From NCBI GenBank assembly GCA_022562855.1, contig JADFON010000031.1, positions 1-11,436 of the forward strand: a DNA stretch of 11,436 bases, written 5' to 3'. A model generated the notes under the pieces. It was not told the DNA's origin and searched no databases. It saw nothing but the letters and a program-made list of their open reading frames with translations. This stretch comes from Candidatus Zhuqueibacterota bacterium (GTDB taxonomy: Bacteria > SM23-31). Shown piece after piece: positions 3,208-11,436 of the stretch (position 1 is its first letter; each line of letters begins with the position of its first letter). A program made the translations under genes and the position numbers.

Positions 3208-4575
3208 TCATTTCAACGATATGGACAATTCATCAAGCTTTCTATAGAGTGAGGAGACGCTTATCCCGAGAGCTGCAGCCGTTTCTTCTTTTTTCATGCC
3301 ATGATTCGACAGCGCTTCTGCAATGTGCCGGTGTTCATAAATTCTCATTGCTTCTTTTAAATCGTCCGGTGTGGTGGTTTTTTCTTCGGGAATTTCCATA
3401 TACATATTCGGAGGGAGGTTATTCGGGCTTATGAGAGAGGAATCGCAAAAAATAATAGCCCTCTCGATCGCGTTTTGCAGTTCTCTTATTTCTCCTTTCC
3501 AGTTATAATTGATAAGGATTTTCATAGTCTCGTTGTCAACTCCGCTTACCGGTTTACTCATTTCTTTGGAGTATTTATGAACAAAGTGGTTGACCAGCAA
3601 GGGAATATCGTCTTTTCGTTCCGAAAGAGACGGCAGGCTTATTTCTATTACGTTTAACCGGTAATATAAATCAAGCCTGAATTTTTCTTCTTTAATAGCC
3701 TTCAGAAGATCGAGATTGGTCGCAGTGATTATTCGGACATCAATTTGCACAGGCATTGTTTCTCCAACCGGAATAATCTCTTTCTGCTCGATTGCCCGGA
3801 GAAGTTTTGCCTGAACATTTAAAGGAACGACGCCTATTTCATCAAGAAAAAGCGTCCCTTTGTTCGCTGCTTCAAAAAATCCTTTTTTGTCTTTTATCGC
3901 CCCCGTAAAGGCTCCTTTTTTGTATCCGAACAATTCACTTTCGACTAAATGTTCCGATATTGCTCCACAGTTTAATGCAACAAATCGCTCGCCCTTTCGT
4001 TTGCTGCAGTAGTGAAGCGAACGTGCTATGAGTTCTTTGCCTGTCCCGCTTTTTCCGGTTATCAGTATATTTCCGGTCGTATTGGCAACTTTTTTTATGC
4101 TTTCAAACACAGCCTGCATTTTTTCAGTTTGACCGATCAGGTTTTCAAAATCATATTTTTCATTGATTTCTTTCCTGAGATTCTTGTTTTCCAGCAATAA
4201 TTCCTTGTGTTCGAACAATTTTTTGATTTTGAACAAAACGTCGTCAAATTCCAGCGGCTTCATGATATAATCATATGCGCCGAGACGCAGAGCCTTGACC
4301 GCGGTTTCAAGCGCCCCAAATGCAGTGATTATAATAAAAAAAGTCTCCGGTTGTATTCCCGATACTTTTTGTAACAGCGTGATACCGTCGATACCGGGCA
4401 TTTTAATATCCGTTATCACAAGATCGTACCCGGATGATTCGGCACCGGTAATTTTCTCGAGGGCAATTTCACCGTTACCCGCTTCGTCCACGCTAAATCC
4501 TTCGCTTTGCAGAAAATAGGCTAAAGAGTTACGAATAATTTCTTCATCGTCCACGACTAAAATCTTGCGTTTCAT
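3208..4575 (-). CDS. NtrC-family sigma-54-dependent response regulator
   Basis: Transcription activator of 455 residues in the standard order receiver, AAA+ domain, Fis-type helix-turn-helix. The receiver (1-122) has the acidic pair D9/D10, phosphoacceptor D56 in ITDIKMP, T84 and K106. The AAA+ domain (about 143-375) has Walker A GKSGTGKE (174-181), the sigma-54 contact loop GAFTGA (221-226), Walker B TLFLDE (241-246) and the sensor region IRELQN (363-368). The helix-turn-helix is at about 417-450 (HIAEALSNHGMKKEETAAAL, then the recognition helix). Walker A has K where the family usually has E (GESGTGKE); the essential K180 is kept, so ATPase function is expected. It begins 2 bases after the histidine kinase stop, so the two form a cognate pair. 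It should remodel RNA polymerase carrying sigma-54 at -24/-12 promoters, but I found no convincing one in this window, so the targets are probably elsewhere. The specific signal is unknown. Confidence 0.94.
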   Translation of the reverse strand: MKRKILVVDDEEIIRNSLAYFLQSEGFSVDEAGNGEIALEKITGAESSGYDLVITDIKMPGIDGITLLQKVSGIQPETFFIIITAFGALETAVKALRLGAYDYIMKPLEFDDVLFKIKKLFEHKELLLENKNLRKEINEKYDFENLIGQTEKMQAVFESIKKVANTTGNILITGKSGTGKELIARSLHYCSKRKGERFVALNCGAISEHLVESELFGYKKGAFTGAIKDKKGFFEAANKGTLFLDEIGVVPLNVQAKLLRAIEQKEIIPVGETMPVQIDVRIITATNLDLLKAIKEEKFRLDLYYRLNVIEISLPSLSERKDDIPLLVNHFVHKYSKEMSKPVSGVDNETMKILINYNWKGEIRELQNAIERAIIFCDSSLISPNNLPPNMYMEIPEEKTTTPDDLKEAMRIYEHRHIAEALSNHGMKKEETAAALGISVSSLYRKLDELSISLK

Positions 4576-4577
4576 AA

Positions 4578-6458
4578 TTATCTCAATATTGGAATTTCTA
4601 TTTTAAATGTGCTGCCGGAGCCGACCCGGCTTTCTACAGATATTTTGCCTCTAAGACTTTCTATTATTCCATAGCTGACCCACAGTCCTAAACCTGTGCC
4701 CTTGCCGACGCCCTTTGTTGTAAAAAAAGGATCGAATATCTTGTTGATTATCGATTCCGGCATGCCTTTTCCGTTATCTTTTATTTCAATATTTATCGAT
4801 CCGTTCCCCATATTAGAAGATATCGAAATATGCCCATTTTCTTCGGGAATAGCGTCCAGCGCATTGAGCAATATATTTATGAAAACCTGCTGCACCTGAT
4901 CATCCGGCAAATCGGTAACCGGCAGCTTGTCATCAAGCTGTACATCGATTTCACAATGGTTTGCCCGGTTGTCGTATTTGATAATATTTACTGCTTCCTG
5001 AACGAGATTATTGATATTGGTAGGTTTTATTTGAAAATCGGATGGTTGGGAAAATGTTACAAGTTCATGGATGAGTTTACTGATTCGGTCAGTTTGTTTT
5101 TTTATTAGATTCAAGTTTTTCTTTAAGTTTTCATCGTCTGTGCCTCTTACAAGCACCTGTATTAAAGAGGATATAGATGTGAGCGGATTTCCGACTTCAT
5201 GAGCGATACCTGCCGCTAACTGACCGACAACAGATAATTTTTCGGAATGGCTTATCTGAGTTTTCAGTTTTTTATATTCGGTCATATCCCTCAGTATGGC
5301 GGAACTTCCGATAATTTTCCGGTTTTTGTCCCTGATAATCGACCGTGTTAATGACGTCGTAATTCTTTTGCCGTCCTTTGTAACTCTTTCGCCTTCGTAG
5401 TTTTTTATGAACCCTTCCTGCTTAAGCAGGGTATTTATCAACCTTAACTCTCCGGATTTTTTTGCTTCGGGTGTAAGAAGTATATCGAAATTCTTCCCTA
5501 TGACTTCCTCACGGGGATATCCGAATATGTTTTCGGCTCCTTTATTCCACGATACGATTGTATCATTGAGATCCATTCCGATTATCGCGTCGACGGAATT
5601 ATCTACAACGGACGATAGATAATGTTCCTTGGAGAATATTTCCTGGCGAATCTGAATTTTTTCTGTCAGGTCGTTGTGAATAGTAGAATACCCGATTAAT
5701 TTGCCGTCATTATTTCTTAATCTCGTCCAATTTACTTCAACAGTAAGCACTTTTCCGTCTTTTCTTACTCTTTCGGTTCTGTAGTAATCCGCTAAACCGT
5801 CTTGCTTTAAAAGTAACTCCATCGACCGGAGTTCTTTGCTTGTGCGTAATTCATCGGTAAAAAGTATGTCAAGCGACTTTCCGATTACCTCATTCGGCTT
5901 ATATTGGAACATCAATTCTGCGCCTTCGTTCCACGTAGATATATTGAGCTTTTCGTCAAGATTAATTACCGCATCTGTTGTTCCATCGGATAGGGAGGCG
6001 AGCCGAAGATCTTCATATTCTAATTCCTTCCTATAACTATTTGTTATATTTTCAAGTTGTAAATCCCTGAAATGATTTGAATGCAAGATCTGGGTTTCAT
6101 TGAATATATCGCTAATTTCACGGCAATTAATACAAAAAAACTGGTCGTCGTCTCGCAGTCTATCCATAAACCTCATGAAGACTGTTTGACCGTATAAGAA
6201 AGCAAGCTGTGTTTCTTTCAGACTAAATCCAGGTTCATCACGTTTTTTTGCCATTTTTTCAAGAAAAATATTCAGTTTTGTATTGTCCTCTTTTTCAAAG
6301 ATATGAATCAAGGCGTTAAAATGTTCCGTTACCGTTTCTTCAATGCCGCTTACCTGATTTTTTTGGTGTCGGTCTTTCGACTTCTTGACAAGAGAAACCC
6401 ACTCGTTAATTATGTTGCCGCTCTCCTTTTTGAACGCTTCTATGTATTTTTTATCCAT
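4578..6458 (-). CDS. Soluble sensor histidine kinase with tandem PAS domains
   Basis: Kinase of 626 residues with no predicted membrane segment, so it should sense a cytoplasmic signal. The N-terminal 135 residues are helical and resemble the RsbR/RsbRD-type N-terminal domain (weak recognition); they contain a Cys pair, C109-I-N-C112. Two PAS domains follow at about 151-268 and 281-395, each with a W-N-x-G-A-E motif and ending in the D-[LM]-T-E sequence that commonly closes a PAS/PAC module. The kinase core has the H-box AHEVGNPL with phosphorylated H420, N-box NILLNALDAI (528-537), G1 DNGKGM (561-566), F-box FDPFFTT (575-581) and G2 GKGTGLGL (585-592). All catalytic motifs are intact. It forms a two-gene unit with the NtrC-type regulator 2 bases downstream. 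The upstream 421-base gap holds its control region and a probable mobile element. No clear ribosome binding site precedes the ATG, but the N-terminus looks natural. The ligand is unknown; heme or redox sensing are possibilities only. Confidence 0.93.
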   Translation of the reverse strand: MDKKYIEAFKKESGNIINEWVSLVKKSKDRHQKNQVSGIEETVTEHFNALIHIFEKEDNTKLNIFLEKMAKKRDEPGFSLKETQLAFLYGQTVFMRFMDRLRDDDQFFCINCREISDIFNETQILHSNHFRDLQLENITNSYRKELEYEDLRLASLSDGTTDAVINLDEKLNISTWNEGAELMFQYKPNEVIGKSLDILFTDELRTSKELRSMELLLKQDGLADYYRTERVRKDGKVLTVEVNWTRLRNNDGKLIGYSTIHNDLTEKIQIRQEIFSKEHYLSSVVDNSVDAIIGMDLNDTIVSWNKGAENIFGYPREEVIGKNFDILLTPEAKKSGELRLINTLLKQEGFIKNYEGERVTKDGKRITTSLTRSIIRDKNRKIIGSSAILRDMTEYKKLKTQISHSEKLSVVGQLAAGIAHEVGNPLTSISSLIQVLVRGTDDENLKKNLNLIKKQTDRISKLIHELVTFSQPSDFQIKPTNINNLVQEAVNIIKYDNRANHCEIDVQLDDKLPVTDLPDDQVQQVFINILLNALDAIPEENGHISISSNMGNGSINIEIKDNGKGMPESIINKIFDPFFTTKGVGKGTGLGLWVSYGIIESLRGKISVESRVGSGSTFKIEIPILR

Positions 6459-6879: not shown

Positions 6880-8001
6880 CTAAACGGGATTTTCTACAAC
6901 CAAAACATCAAATGATTCCGGTGATTTATTATTAGTGCCGGTTTCAATTTTTGCTTTCAGTCTTGTGTTGTCTTTGCTGTAACTTTTTCTGATGTAACCA
7001 AGTCCGACAGTTTTCTTGATCTTTCTTGAATAGGTCAAAGATGTGATATGTCCGGCTCTGATATTGTCTTCTGAATACAGCATATAATCGCCATCAGGAA
7101 CATTGTCAGTCTGAAAAACTATACTGCGGAGGTGCTTTTGTACTTTGTCATAAGTGTCAAGGCGGGCGATAACCTCCTGACCGATATAACATCCCTTGGT
7201 GAAACTGACATCGCTTATAATTCCAGCTTCGTGGGGATTGATGTTTTCATTGAATTCGTTGGGAGAGGAAGGTAAGCCATTTTCAATTCGAAATATTTCG
7301 TGAGCCTCTTCGCCAATCAAGCTTATTTCTAATCCCAAATGGTCATCCAACATGCTATTCAACAATTCCGCACAGATTTTTTGTTCTACAATGATCCAAT
7401 AGTGGTGAAATTTGTCATTCATATGAGGTCGAATCAGATCGAAAGATACATTATCGACAGATATTGGAATTAGTCTGCGCTCATCCACTGAACTGCCGGT
7501 ATTACCGCTGAGAAGCTCTACAAATTGGTCTGCTTTCGGACCAAGTATCTCGATAATAATTATTTCATCCCGGAAAGGTAGTACATTGACATCGTCCACA
7601 ATAATATATTTTTCTATCCACTTCAACAGTTTTTCTTCGTATTCAGGACAGCCGGTCATAAGAAGGTAATCGCCATAATTGATCAAAGTCGCGTAATCGA
7701 TAATTCTTCCGTTTTCATTTGTAAAAATAGTGCGTGTTACTCTGTTTTTTTCTAAATTTTTTGTTTCATTGGTGGTAATCCTGTGAAGAAAATCGAGAGT
7801 ATCCGTACCGTGCAGCTTGTAAATACCTTTGTCCGGTAATATACGAATACCAGCCGAATTATATAATGCATGATATTCATTTTCTATAGAGCCGAAGTTC
7901 TGAACGCAAAGATAATCTCTATCCGGGTTAAAAATAGCTCCGTGTTCCTTGAAAATATCACGGATAGAGGCAGAACCGGTATTTGTTTGATTCATAGACA
8001 T
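6880..8001 (-). CDS. ygfZ: YgfZ/GcvT-family folate-binding protein (Fe-S enzyme maintenance)
   Basis: Soluble 373-residue protein related to the glycine-cleavage T-protein. The family signature K-G-C-Y-x-G-Q-E is present as KGCYIGQE (269-276), with the conserved cysteine C271, preceded by a motif of the NPHEAG...VSFTKG type (255-269). This signature separates YgfZ from true aminomethyltransferases. E. coli YgfZ binds tetrahydrofolate and supports certain Fe-S enzymes and tRNA modification. The protein is somewhat longer than E. coli YgfZ (about 326), partly through an N-terminal extension of about 50 residues before the core; part of this extension (GAIFNPDRDYL, HALYNSAGI) resembles the start of GcvT-type proteins. 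It begins 2 bases after the DUF6787-like gene, so translation is probably coupled, and it is the last gene of the respiratory run. A second ATG two codons later is an equally possible start. No ribosome binding site is visible. Confidence 0.9.
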   Translation of the reverse strand: MSMNQTNTGSASIRDIFKEHGAIFNPDRDYLCVQNFGSIENEYHALYNSAGIRILPDKGIYKLHGTDTLDFLHRITTNETKNLEKNRVTRTIFTNENGRIIDYATLINYGDYLLMTGCPEYEEKLLKWIEKYIIVDDVNVLPFRDEIIIIEILGPKADQFVELLSGNTGSSVDERRLIPISVDNVSFDLIRPHMNDKFHHYWIIVEQKICAELLNSMLDDHLGLEISLIGEEAHEIFRIENGLPSSPNEFNENINPHEAGIISDVSFTKGCYIGQEVIARLDTYDKVQKHLRSIVFQTDNVPDGDYMLYSEDNIRAGHITSLTYSRKIKKTVGLGYIRKSYSKDNTRLKAKIETGTNNKSPESFDVLVVENPV

Positions 8002-8003
8002 TT

Positions 8004-8345
8004 TTAATCGGAAATTTTTGATTGAAAGCGTCCGGCAGTATTATGAATTCTTGTCAAAATCCACCGCCCGAGTGCCTTTTCTCTTGACCAGATGAAATGA
8101 AATTGTCCTAATAATGCGCCATATACGAGAAGTAATACCTGGTGTATGGGGAAAAACAGCATTACTCTGAGAAAGATCCTTAGAATCAAGGAAGAGTCTG
8201 CATCTATTTTTAAAATTCTGACAATTTTGTCAGAGAAATATACGGTACTTGAACCTGCTAATGCAAATGTAAGAAGAATTAAAATTATTGTCCATGTACC
8301 GGTAATATCCCATTTGTGCTTTAACTTGGTTATAAATCCAGGCAT
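8004..8345 (-). CDS. Small DUF6787-like membrane protein
   Basis: A 113-residue protein of unknown function with a basic N-terminus (residues 7-11, KLKHK), a first membrane helix at about 17-36, and a second hydrophobic stretch at about 53-80 that could be one long or two short helices. It ends in a basic, soluble tail. The pattern of a short basic head, W-x-x-T-G-T-W, and G-Q-F-H-F (80-84) after the last helix reminds me of the DUF6787 family of Bacteroidota; this is recalled, not searched. The sequence before the ATG lacks a ribosome binding site, and in-frame codons upstream soon meet a stop, so no longer start fits. It sits between the eight-helix membrane protein (21-base gap) and ygfZ (2-base gap). 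An accessory role for the neighbouring membrane complex is an inference from position only. Confidence 0.75.
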   Translation of the reverse strand: MPGFITKLKHKWDITGTWTIILILLTFALAGSSTVYFSDKIVRILKIDADSSLILRIFLRVMLFFPIHQVLLLVYGALLGQFHFIWSREKALGRWILTRIHNTAGRFQSKISD

Positions 8346-8366: not shown

Positions 8367-9302
8367 TCAAAACTGCTGACGAATTACTGTCATTAACAAT
8401 ATAACTAATAACATTATTCCCGAACCTGTATAAACTAATGTAAGGTTGTTTTCTGAATTTCGGGCTTTAAAGATAACTATAATCGCAATCGCCGTCAGCA
8501 AAATGCTCGTTGATAACGAATGGGTAGCCATCGGATTCGCGCCAAAGAAGTACCTCATTTGTTCGCCGGGGAGTGAAATTACATAAGCAATACCGATCAC
8601 TAAATTGAGAAAAGTAGCGTGCATAAACATTTTACCACCATATTGAACAGCCCATTTCGACCAGTCATCCGAACCGGATTTTCCCCGTGCCCCGATTATC
8701 ATAACCCAAAGACCGGAAATTGCCACCGCACTTATGACAAAATGTAAGTACCCGGTATATAAAGATAAATCGCTAAATCGCGGGATGGCGCTAATACTAC
8801 CTTCAAGATAACCCGACCATGTTTCCGGGCGAAGCATTACCGGAAAATTGTAAGAATACAGAAGACCGAGGAGCAAAAAAAGAAGCATTATAATTCCCGG
8901 AATCAAACTAAGGAACCGTTCAGGTGAATCCCATTTTTTTCTGATATGATAGCATCCGATTTGTCCCGATAGTAAAAGAAAAAAAGCGGTATAGAGGACT
9001 ATTGATCCCAGTATTTGAGAAAATGGAATGGTATTCCAATATATCAGTAGAACAAGAACTGCAGGCACAACTATACCGGCAAAAACAAATATACCCGCTT
9101 TATAGATGTAGCCGGACAGCAGTCTGCCGAGTTTGTATTGGTTCGAATTCGGGTCCTTTGCTCCGGCGCTTATTAAGGTAAAGACCGAGCCGCCGACAAT
9201 AAGATTCATAGGAACGAGATGCAAAATAAAGAAAAATAATAGCATGAATTTTAGTGTCGAGAGAGACTCAGGGAGTGAAAGTTGTTCTATGGCTGATGGC
9301 AT
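8367..9302 (-). CDS. Eight-helix membrane protein, distantly like cytochrome bd subunit I; possible b-type cytochrome
   Basis: Integral membrane protein of 311 residues. I count eight hydrophobic helices at about 17-46, 66-90, 97-120, 131-152, 181-204, 226-245, 262-279 and 286-306. Histidines lie within or at the ends of helices: H28, H119, H187, H228 and H261. The first helix, with HLVPMNLIVGG (28-38), and the fifth, GYLHFVISAVAISG (184-197), have the character of heme-bearing helices 1 and 5 of CydA and of the CydA-like proteins of Geobacter and Nitrospira; this is recognition by eye. It lacks the length of CydA (about 450-520) and the Q-loop, so it is not a normal bd oxidase subunit, and no CydB is present here. 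It follows the oxidase-subunit-IV/diheme cytochrome c fusion by 24 bases. A quinol-oxidising or electron-transferring membrane cytochrome is my preferred inference. A non-heme membrane protein cannot be excluded. Confidence 0.7.
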   Translation of the reverse strand: MPSAIEQLSLPESLSTLKFMLLFFFILHLVPMNLIVGGSVFTLISAGAKDPNSNQYKLGRLLSGYIYKAGIFVFAGIVVPAVLVLLIYWNTIPFSQILGSIVLYTAFFLLLSGQIGCYHIRKKWDSPERFLSLIPGIIMLLFLLLGLLYSYNFPVMLRPETWSGYLEGSISAIPRFSDLSLYTGYLHFVISAVAISGLWVMIIGARGKSGSDDWSKWAVQYGGKMFMHATFLNLVIGIAYVISLPGEQMRYFFGANPMATHSLSTSILLTAIAIIVIFKARNSENNLTLVYTGSGIMLLVILLMTVIRQQF

Positions 9303-9326
9303 GATATATTTTTTGGTTTGTAATAG

Positions 9327-10145
9327 TTAAGGGTTTTTGGGACTGCCGTCTTCTTTATACCATGATTCGATATAATCTGATATCATTCTTAGCTCTTCAT
9401 CCGTTCCCAGCCACGGCACCATTAATTCAATCTGCTCTGTGAATATCGGGATCAAATCGAACACATCGTCTGAAGTTGAGCCGTAAAATGAATCGAAGAT
9501 CGGTCGTGTGTCGCCGTCGATTGTATGGCAAAAATTGCATCTATTATTAAAGACTTCTTCACCGGATTGAAATTTATACTCTTTATCGGTTTTTGAATAC
9601 AGGAAATTTGCCAGTAATCTGCGTTCCTCATCGGTTCCGGAAAACGGGGTCATTGCAAACCGCGAATGTTCCAAACGGTCTATAAAATAATAAATAAATT
9701 CTTCATTTAGACCTTTTAGTTGATTTGGCAAACCCATGTCTCCCTGTAAGACATGACATCCACCACAGGAACTCACAAAGATCCCTCCTCCAGGACCGAG
9801 AAAATCGTACATCGCTGCGTTTTCCGTTATTAGGTTATCCCGGTATTCGTATATGTCACCCCGGCGCATTGTGTCGGCAATCGTCAGCGTTATCAAAACT
9901 GTTAAGAAGAACAACGAAGTACTAAAAATTATTATATACAGTTTGTTGTCATAGTACAAATGCATAAAGAACAATGCAACAAGCGCCGCCTTGAAAGAGG
10001 CGATGCCAAGCGCTATAATCAAATTGAGGGATCCCATATCTATAAACGAAACGGTTACCGTAATAATCGTCAGAAATAAAAGAGAACCGCCAATTAAAAA
10101 ATATATTTTTCTTGGTAATACATGAGGTTTTTCATGATCATTCAT
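9327..10145 (-). CDS. Fusion of cytochrome oxidase subunit IV-like domain and diheme cytochrome c
   Basis: A 272-residue protein with two parts. Residues 1-92 contain three membrane helices (about 14-35, 41-62, 69-91). The second holds FKAALVALFFMHLYY (51-65), the hallmark of the small subunit IV (CyoD/CtaF, COX4_pro) of heme-copper oxidases, which is normally a stand-alone protein of about 100 residues. Residues 110-265 are a two-domain class I cytochrome c: heme sites CGGCH (127-131) and CNFCH (203-207), each followed by a likely axial methionine in a typical context, M165 (FAMTPFSGTDEE) and M242 (ELMVPWLGTDEE). With the N-terminus inside, three helices put the hemes in the periplasm, where heme c is attached. 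It starts 38 bases after hemY and is followed by the eight-helix membrane protein. No oxidase subunit I, II or III gene is in the window; they could lie beyond hemY. I see no frameshift at the junction. Confidence 0.88.
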   Translation of the reverse strand: MNDHEKPHVLPRKIYFLIGGSLLFLTIITVTVSFIDMGSLNLIIALGIASFKAALVALFFMHLYYDNKLYIIIFSTSLFFLTVLITLTIADTMRRGDIYEYRDNLITENAAMYDFLGPGGGIFVSSCGGCHVLQGDMGLPNQLKGLNEEFIYYFIDRLEHSRFAMTPFSGTDEERRLLANFLYSKTDKEYKFQSGEEVFNNRCNFCHTIDGDTRPIFDSFYGSTSDDVFDLIPIFTEQIELMVPWLGTDEELRMISDYIESWYKEDGSPKNP

Positions 10146-10183: not shown

Positions 10184-11436
10184 TTAATTTGACAGAAATT
10201 CCGTCACTTTCCGGTAGACGGCGTCTGAGTTTTTTATACAATCTCCCACTGATATGCCGCCTCTATAGTTACCGGCAAGAAACAAACCCGGATTCGATTC
10301 CTCGAATTTATCAAATTCCCGGTCATGCTCGAAATGTCCGGTATTATATTGAGGAATAGCTTTTTCCCAAAATTTTTGCGCCATGAATACCGGAGTTTCA
10401 TTTATTTCCATGACGTCATGAAACTCTTTTAACACCTCTTGAATCAGATTCTCCCTGGCGTCATTTTTTTTGTCATTCAATAAGCCGGGGCTGCGCGCCC
10501 CACCAATGAACAGCGTAAATGAAACATGATTTTCATCCGACCTTTCAGGAAAAAGTACAGTATTCCAGATTGCACCGAGAAACAACTTTTTTTCTTTTTC
10601 AGGTATGAGAAATCCAAACCCGTCAAGATTACGCCCGACTGCCTCCTTTCGGTAACCAAGACACAAGACCAAAACAGGAGGATAATAAATTGAGAATAGA
10701 TGTTCAGAAACATTCTTATCAATGCCGCTAAGAATATCAGCCGCAATATAAGCGGGAATCGTTGAAACTACGACCTTTGTCTCAATGGTATATTCCTCAC
10801 CGTCCCTTTTATATTTTACAAGATATCCGGAATTCTCTTTTTCATTGTGTTCGACAGTATTTACTTCAGCGCCAAATACTACTTTTGCTCCCAGGGAGTG
10901 AGCAACAGCCCTCGGTAGTGAGTTCATTCCCTGGCGGAATGAGAACATTTTTGCGCTTTGCTTCGAATCTTCGGCGGATGTTTTTCTTTCTTTTCTTCCT
11001 TTTATCATCCCCTTTATCAATCCGCCATATTTTTCTTCGAGACGGAAGAGACGGGGAAAGGCGGATTTTACGCTCAGGTTTTCCGGGTTTCCTGCAAATA
11101 CACCGCCGACAAACGGGTTGATCGCGTAATCGAGAAATTCCTGACCGAGCCGTCTTCTAACAAAATCGGCAATACTCTCGTCATCTTCAGCCGAAGCAGC
11201 TTTGAATTTCGAAACAAATGGTTCGCATAGCAATCTCAGTTTCGCTTTAGAAGAGAATAGCCTTGTCTTCAAAAAAGAACCGGGACTTGTGGGAAGCGCA
11301 TGAAGCGTATTGTCTCTCAGTATATACCTTTTTTTAGCCTCTTCCCGCGCATAAATCATCTCACCGGAGATACCGGATTCTTCCGCTAATTTTCTTATTA
11401 GCGGAGTGGTTTCCAGTCCGCTGTTAGGTCCATGAT
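10184..11436 (-). CDS. hemY: Protoporphyrinogen oxidase (HemY type), 5' end cut by window edge
   Basis: FAD-dependent enzyme that oxidises protoporphyrinogen IX to protoporphyrin IX (or coproporphyrinogen in some lineages), the late step of heme synthesis; peripheral membrane or cytoplasmic. The frame is open to the window edge. An internal ATG at 11359 is not the start, because upstream in-frame codons encode HGPNSGLETTPLIRKLAEE, the conserved family segment that follows the FAD-binding N-terminus. About 416 codons are visible; the missing part should be some 40-50 residues carrying the GxGxxG dinucleotide fold. Other family features are KKRYILRDNTLHALPTSP near 11286-11335 and the C-terminal FAD-contact segment LFLAGNYRGGISVGDC near 10240-10285. 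It precedes the cytochrome fusion by 38 bases, which fits supply of heme to the cytochromes encoded downstream. Whether the substrate is proto- or coproporphyrinogen cannot be read here. Confidence 0.93.
   Translation of the reverse strand, partial: HGPNSGLETTPLIRKLAEESGISGEMIYAREEAKKRYILRDNTLHALPTSPGSFLKTRLFSSKAKLRLLCEPFVSKFKAASAEDDESIADFVRRRLGQEFLDYAINPFVGGVFAGNPENLSVKSAFPRLFRLEEKYGGLIKGMIKGRKERKTSAEDSKQSAKMFSFRQGMNSLPRAVAHSLGAKVVFGAEVNTVEHNEKENSGYLVKYKRDGEEYTIETKVVVSTIPAYIAADILSGIDKNVSEHLFSIYYPPVLVLCLGYRKEAVGRNLDGFGFLIPEKEKKLFLGAIWNTVLFPERSDENHVSFTLFIGGARSPGLLNDKKNDARENLIQEVLKEFHDVMEINETPVFMAQKFWEKAIPQYNTGHFEHDREFDKFEESNPGLFLAGNYRGGISVGDCIKNSDAVYRKVTEFLSN

Follow-up and report, generated by a model that had tools for sequence, protein, structure and literature searches.

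Under the classification of Murali et al. 2021, the OR-N CydAA' enzymes have been described as probably cytochrome c-oxidizing (PMC10839748), and OR-N5 pairs are found directly downstream of alternative complex III (ACIII) in Nitrospirales (PMC12342949). ACIII and aa3/caa3 oxidases have been isolated together from F. johnsoniae and R. marinus, and electron transfer between the two was proposed to occur via mobile or attached c domains (PMC8552683). Such supercomplexes offer a natural place for an extra c bridge. Here we analyze an 11,436-nucleotide stretch of DNA (the window) from a Candidatus Zhuqueibacterota bacterium in which a 272-aa protein, consisting of a caa3 oxidase subunit IV (CoxIV) joined to a diheme cytochrome c, is encoded beside a 311-aa membrane protein with eight helices. 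The window is one complete contig (C470) of a metagenome-assembled genome (MAG; G000) that comprises 2.5 Mb in 491 contigs and is 80% complete. A preliminary description, made from the sequence of the window, had proposed that the two genes form an undescribed electron-transfer module, and our results support that interpretation in part. We propose that a bd-like locus lost its catalytic subunit and that an alternative caa3 subunit IV became the new anchor of its diheme c, which now feeds that oxidase, a reading whose chances we regard as evenly balanced.

The subunit IV-diheme cytochrome c fusion

Both open reading frames (ORFs) are on the minus strand at the place given in the preliminary description, the fusion at 9327..10145 and the eight-helix protein at 8367..9302, with 24 bp between them. 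Residues 1-114 of the fusion (9804..10145, minus strand) form a caa3 subunit IV domain that matches TIGR02229 with 69.9 bits against a curated cut-off of 37.25 and also matches COX4_pro. Residues 117-272 (9330..9797, minus strand) match Cytochrome_CBB3 and contain two heme c motifs, CGGCH at residues 127-131 (9753..9767, minus strand) and CNFCH at residues 203-207 (9525..9539, minus strand). As seen from the sequence and from the alignment to a homologue (L006), the first is followed by a Met at the usual MPPF-like place (AMTPF) and the second by a Met at its usual place (LMVPW). The class I c-type combination of CXXCH and a downstream Met therefore occurs twice, and the previous description of a subunit IV-like anchor that carries two c-type hemes holds up.

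The CoxIV part shares 61% identity over 114 aa with the CoxD of the same genome, which is encoded in the caa3 operon (L023:12510-12896), and at most 50% with CoxIV of other genomes, which implies that subunit IV was duplicated in this lineage. It retains 24 of the 25 positions conserved across 14 CoxIV proteins, a mild overestimate since the 14 were chosen by similarity. The likeness to CoxD stops at residue 114 of 128, near the natural C-terminus of CoxD, so that an almost complete subunit IV is joined to a complete diheme domain. An apparent alignment of the N-terminal part to CydA was forced by the aligner and has no meaning. The diheme domain is homologous to the C-terminal diheme domains of both c-fused CydA proteins (CydA-c) in genome G002 (bacterium isolate PL23a_bin.125, L030), with 41% and 38% identity, and a tree groups it with these two domains with support of 92/93. 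Among the other CoxIV genes sampled, none carries a c domain. Judged from sequence, the protein is thus a fusion of a duplicated subunit IV with a c domain of CydA-c ancestry.

Because the MAG is fragmented, an assembly or binning artefact could in principle have produced the fusion by joining two reads or contigs into a chimera. The CoxIV part differs from the genome's own CoxD by 39% throughout and hence is not a mis-joined CoxD, the join between the two parts is in frame, and the flanking genes are syntenic with genomes G001 and G002. We consider such a chimera hardly probable at all.

The window contains no heme-copper subunit I and no CydB, as reported before, and no CydA either. A search of the 80%-complete genome with PF01654 (CydA) gave no match, an absence that is not final at this completeness. 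The genome has one COX1, and its ACIII-SCO-coxBACD-ctaA cluster, which contains its own CoxD, is on contig C373. G002 shows the reverse, with two CydA-c genes and no COX1 detected. Its CydA-diheme c genes are found at C254 and C105/C310 (L006, L117, L024), and its pair of CydA-c and eight-helix genes adjoins ACIII. The second CydA-c gene, apparently split over two contig ends, has no eight-helix gene directly downstream. This second copy occupies the place that the fusion gene has in the window, with a histidine kinase (HK; 50%), an NtrC-type regulator (66%) and PolX (47%) that agree in order and strand. In the nearer genome G001, the HK-NtrC pair (65% and 74%) is preceded by hemE, and neither the fusion gene nor the eight-helix gene is present there.

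The eight-helix family and its CydA-like partner

No Pfam or NCBIfam family matched the 311-aa protein above cut-off; DUF4389, EccD and AC_N were rejected as identities since their matches lie below cut-off. An AlphaFold2 model built from 42 sequences consists of eight transmembrane (TM) helices and two short helices (pLDDT 88.8, pTM 0.88), in agreement with the eight-helix membrane protein predicted earlier. In VIA-align, CydA chains ranked at the top, with E. coli 6rx4_A at Z 26.5 (root-mean-square deviation 3.4 over 299 residues) and 5doq_A at Z 26.4, followed at lower scores by ActC/ActF (Z 18-19) and PsrC (Z 16). The Foldseek result was not significant by itself (best E 2e-3), and its top matches were all bd and ACIII subunits. 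A profile search of PDB with the family returned chance matches only. The link to CydA rests on the structure comparison together with the partner family described below. We also considered CydB as the nearest relative. It gave no hhalign match, and CydA was the best chain in every bd entry by VIA-align, so CydA is preferred and CydB is the less likely relative.

Single-sequence scans of viral and genome contigs with the 311-aa protein gave no match, the protein being too divergent. Four relatives were found among 98 genomes, and the protein matches the G002 relative with E 1e-44 and 30% identity. An alignment of three relatives recovered 339 stretches across the GTDB species genomes, and the family counts use 80 of them. 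The hosts are mostly Desulfobacterota and also include Acidobacteriota, KSB1, Ignavibacteriota, Latescibacterota and Spirochaetota. At 74 of the 80 loci, the eight-helix gene has beside it an ORF that matches a CydA-like profile (at L077, counted here, it is 1.6 kb away), and nearly always this ORF has 1-8 CXXCH motifs. Two further loci show the first codons of a CydA-like gene where the contig stops, and at one more the contig breaks off at the eight-helix gene itself, giving a CydA-like neighbor at 76 of 79 testable loci. The three true exceptions, all from Desulfobacteraceae (L048:6001-7110, L060:6001-7071 and L093:952-2025), have no adjacent CydA-like gene and retain the family motifs. Linkage of the eight-helix gene to a gene for a c-type cytochrome protein is therefore conserved in most loci.

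The partner family matches PF01654 over its first half and has one His and two Glu at the positions of H19, E99 and E107 in E. coli CydA; its invariant columns contain no His at the place of H186. The eight-helix family shows the reverse pattern, with both His and no Glu. Comparison of the two family profiles by hhalign (E 5e-12) indicates that they are paralogues, and the eight-helix family is the CydA'-like partner of c-fused CydA proteins in the cytochrome bd superfamily. The "weak CydA-like helices" noted before were correctly seen, and the CydA fold and this paralogy strengthen that observation. The linkage to CydA-like genes, together with the two invariant His described below, makes it more than a chance likeness. 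The module is not undescribed as a kind, since its family and partner belong to the bd superfamily and c-linked CydA/CydA' pairs have already been proposed (PMC10839748, PMC12342949). No Pfam or NCBIfam model recognized the members of the eight-helix family that we tested, and the family deserves a model of its own.

Some loci of the family merit mention in their own right. The eight-helix gene at L032, L042, L050 and many further loci of Desulfobacterota adjoins a gene for a CydA-like protein of ∼880 aa with up to eight CXXCH motifs, and such multiheme bd-like proteins occur in mostly anaerobic bacteria. At L007:1916-6067 (G058:C3), CydA-c and eight-helix genes directly follow Rieske and cytochrome b genes, which suggests a bc complex as the electron donor there.

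Two His residues of the 311-aa protein, H28 (9219..9221, minus strand) and H187 (8742..8744, minus strand), are invariant across all 41 aligned relatives. An hhalign match to the single E. coli CydA sequence, weak by itself (E 0.1), places them on H19, a ligand of an active-site heme, and H186, a ligand of heme b558. Counterparts of E99 and E107 were not found in the 311-aa protein, whose TM2-TM3 region has no acidic residue.

The preliminary description had offered two functions for the pair, a small quinol:cytochrome c oxidoreductase and an accessory branch delivering electrons to an oxidase. In the former, quinol would be oxidized at heme b of the eight-helix protein and electrons would pass through the diheme c to a soluble acceptor, for which the two invariant His in a CydA fold and the adjoining membrane-anchored diheme c would be suited. 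However, we found neither a quinol site nor a Q-loop, the TM6-TM7 connection having ∼13 residues in the AlphaFold2 model. The genome already has ACIII for that job, and the anchor retains conserved residues of subunit IV that a simple anchor would not need. A stand-alone quinol oxidoreductase is thus quite improbable, while the notion of an electron-transfer pair and the accessory-branch alternative gain support. The checks that the preliminary description had set for itself came out on its side, with a structural match to CydA, both His conserved, and the eight-helix gene linked to a c-type cytochrome across the family.

Divergence and proposed origin of the module

Of 47 columns in which its relatives show conservation of 90% or more, the window's eight-helix protein retains 26, while the relatives retain 85-100%. 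The losses are concentrated in TM2-TM3 (residues 54-122; 8937..9143, minus strand), where 14 of 20 family-conserved residues are gone; retention is 6/20 in this region versus 20/27 elsewhere (Fisher p 0.004). The family motif GVAPLLFxQ...YG..Y.SS..M...W of TM2-TM3 is not found in the window protein, and the family alignment shows that the last, C-terminal helix is missing from it as well. Its branch is 3.1 changes per site long, the median being 0.36. Cytochrome bd enzymes have a channel at the CydA/CydB interface that TM2/TM3 of both subunits flank (PMC8951039). Loss of residues that presumably face the partner, combined with retention of both His, is what would be expected if a CydA' had been left without its CydA and had taken up a different partner, and we infer that this has happened here.

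Two other explanations bear on the same data. In one, CydA is encoded in the fifth of the genome that the assembly does not cover, the eight-helix protein is the CydA' of a working bd-like oxidase, and the fusion is either its c donor or unrelated. The completeness of 80% leaves room for such a gene, the motif-bearing eight-helix genes at L048, L060 and L093 indicate that linkage to CydA is not obligatory, and the second CydA-c gene of G002 likewise lacks an eight-helix gene downstream. Yet PF01654 has no match in the genome, the window protein has lost the 14 TM2-TM3 residues and the last helix whereas the L048, L060 and L093 proteins retain the TM2-TM3 motif, and the c domain is on CoxIV instead of CydA. 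We judge a hidden CydA unlikely. In the other, the CydA'-like gene is a decaying remnant on its way to being lost, leaving a role for the fusion alone or for neither protein. The extreme divergence and truncation of the eight-helix protein would fit, as would the loss of CydA. An intact ORF of 311 codons at ∼3 changes per site, with both His and a confidently predicted fold, is unlike neutral decay, which makes a remnant a rather poor prospect, less probable than a hidden CydA.

According to the reading that we prefer, the ancestor was a cytochrome c-oxidizing bd-like oxygen reductase composed of a CydA with C-terminal c hemes and a CydA'-like partner. The lineage then lost the catalytic membrane half of CydA, and the diheme c tail became fused, in frame, with a second copy of caa3 subunit IV that had arisen by duplication. 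The resulting fusion protein most likely substitutes for subunit IV in part of the molecules of the only heme-copper oxidase that the cell has, and its CoxIV part probably docks on caa3 in lieu of CoxD. Two extra c hemes would thereby be held at the periplasmic face, where electrons could reach them from ACIII or from a soluble donor and move on to the CuA/heme c end of caa3; that the diheme c carries electrons between these partners is an even call. The CydA'-like protein would remain with its old neighbor, the diheme domain, as a membrane subunit, and probably would still bind at least one b heme via H28 and/or H187. For heme b binding and continued attachment to the diheme protein in combination, we place the likelihood slightly under even. 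Within this reading, the sequences themselves show the ancestry, the fusion, the lack of a catalytic CydA in the 80%-complete genome, the loss of residues presumed to face CydA and the presence of an ACIII-caa3 chain; docking on caa3, the direction of electron flow and heme b are predictions. An extension in which the CydA'-like heme-b subunit is held stably in caa3 through the alternative subunit IV, with the diheme as a bridge, is not what we would expect to find; if true, parts of two unrelated oxygen reductase superfamilies would work in one complex.

Several observations weigh against our proposal. A second genome with a CoxIV-diheme c fusion was not found among the genomes searched, and the fusion gene beside an orphan CydA' is seen in a single MAG (491 contigs, 80% complete), which is thin ground. 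The fusion gene is located outside the cox operon, and in the eight-helix family we recognized no Met that would correspond to the second ligand of b558. In addition, the very long branch means that the function of the eight-helix protein may have changed beyond recognition. The fusion could also be a piece of tinkering confined to this lineage and without lasting use.

Since all domains come from known superfamilies, the finding is not categorically new. A CoxIV fused to a bd-like c tail beside an orphan bd-like partner is nevertheless a new combination, not found elsewhere in the genomes searched. Heme-copper and bd oxygen reductases form two superfamilies with no relation to each other, and the locus suggests that one enzyme family passed a respiratory module to the other. 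If true, this would provide a direct view of respiratory chains swapping terminal oxidases while keeping the donor side. The persistence of CydA' without a catalytic subunit also offers a testable handle on the role of CydA' in c-linked bd-like enzymes.

The two genes belong to a minus-strand run of hemG, the fusion gene, the eight-helix gene, a DUF6787 gene and ygfZ, with spacings of 38, 24, 21 and 2 bp. The protoporphyrinogen oxidase gene hemG (10184..11359, minus strand; TIGR00562, 262 bits) lies upstream of the fusion gene and is likely in the same transcript as the pair. The DUF6787 small protein (8004..8345, minus strand; PF20584, E 2e-19) is encoded between the eight-helix gene and ygfZ (6880-8001, minus strand) within this one string and probably shares a transcript with the eight-helix gene. 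About 420 bp beyond ygfZ, also on the minus strand, is a PAS-type HK (4578-6458), followed by an NtrC-type regulator (3208-4575) and then by a response regulator and PolX, all named from sequence. The HK/NtrC pair is common to the window, G001 and G002, near hem genes or a diheme c gene, and could regulate respiratory genes.

Comparison with known oxygen reductases

ActC/ActF of ACIII and PsrC, which are of the NrfD type, share with the window protein an eight-helix fold of four-helix bundles (Z 16-19), but their structural scores are clearly below that of CydA and they give no sequence match. E. coli CydA (6rx4_A) shares both the fold and the His at the H19 and H186 positions. Unlike it, the window protein has no Glu or Asp in TM2-TM3 (the E99/E107 region), no Q-loop and no ninth helix. 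A working bd-type oxygen reductase has a catalytic CydA with equivalents of H19, E99 and E107, and no such protein was found in the window or the 80%-complete genome. With caa3 subunit IV (CoxD, TIGR02229) the fusion has in common nearly the full subunit in its N-terminal 114 residues, and it differs in being a second copy outside the cox operon that bears a diheme c domain.

The OR-N/OR-C CydA/CydA' oxygen reductases, like the window, combine a CydA'-like homologue and a c-type cytochrome in one module (PMC10839748, PMC12342949). We liken the family to them by gene arrangement and published descriptions. The window differs from these enzymes in that neither the locus nor the 80%-complete genome has a catalytic CydA, in that its diheme c is carried by CoxIV, and in that its CydA' has lost the last helix and most of the residues conserved in TM2-TM3. 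The CydA-c/eight-helix pair of G002 beside ACIII, in turn, resembles the OR-N5 pair beside ACIII in Nitrospirales (PMC12342949).
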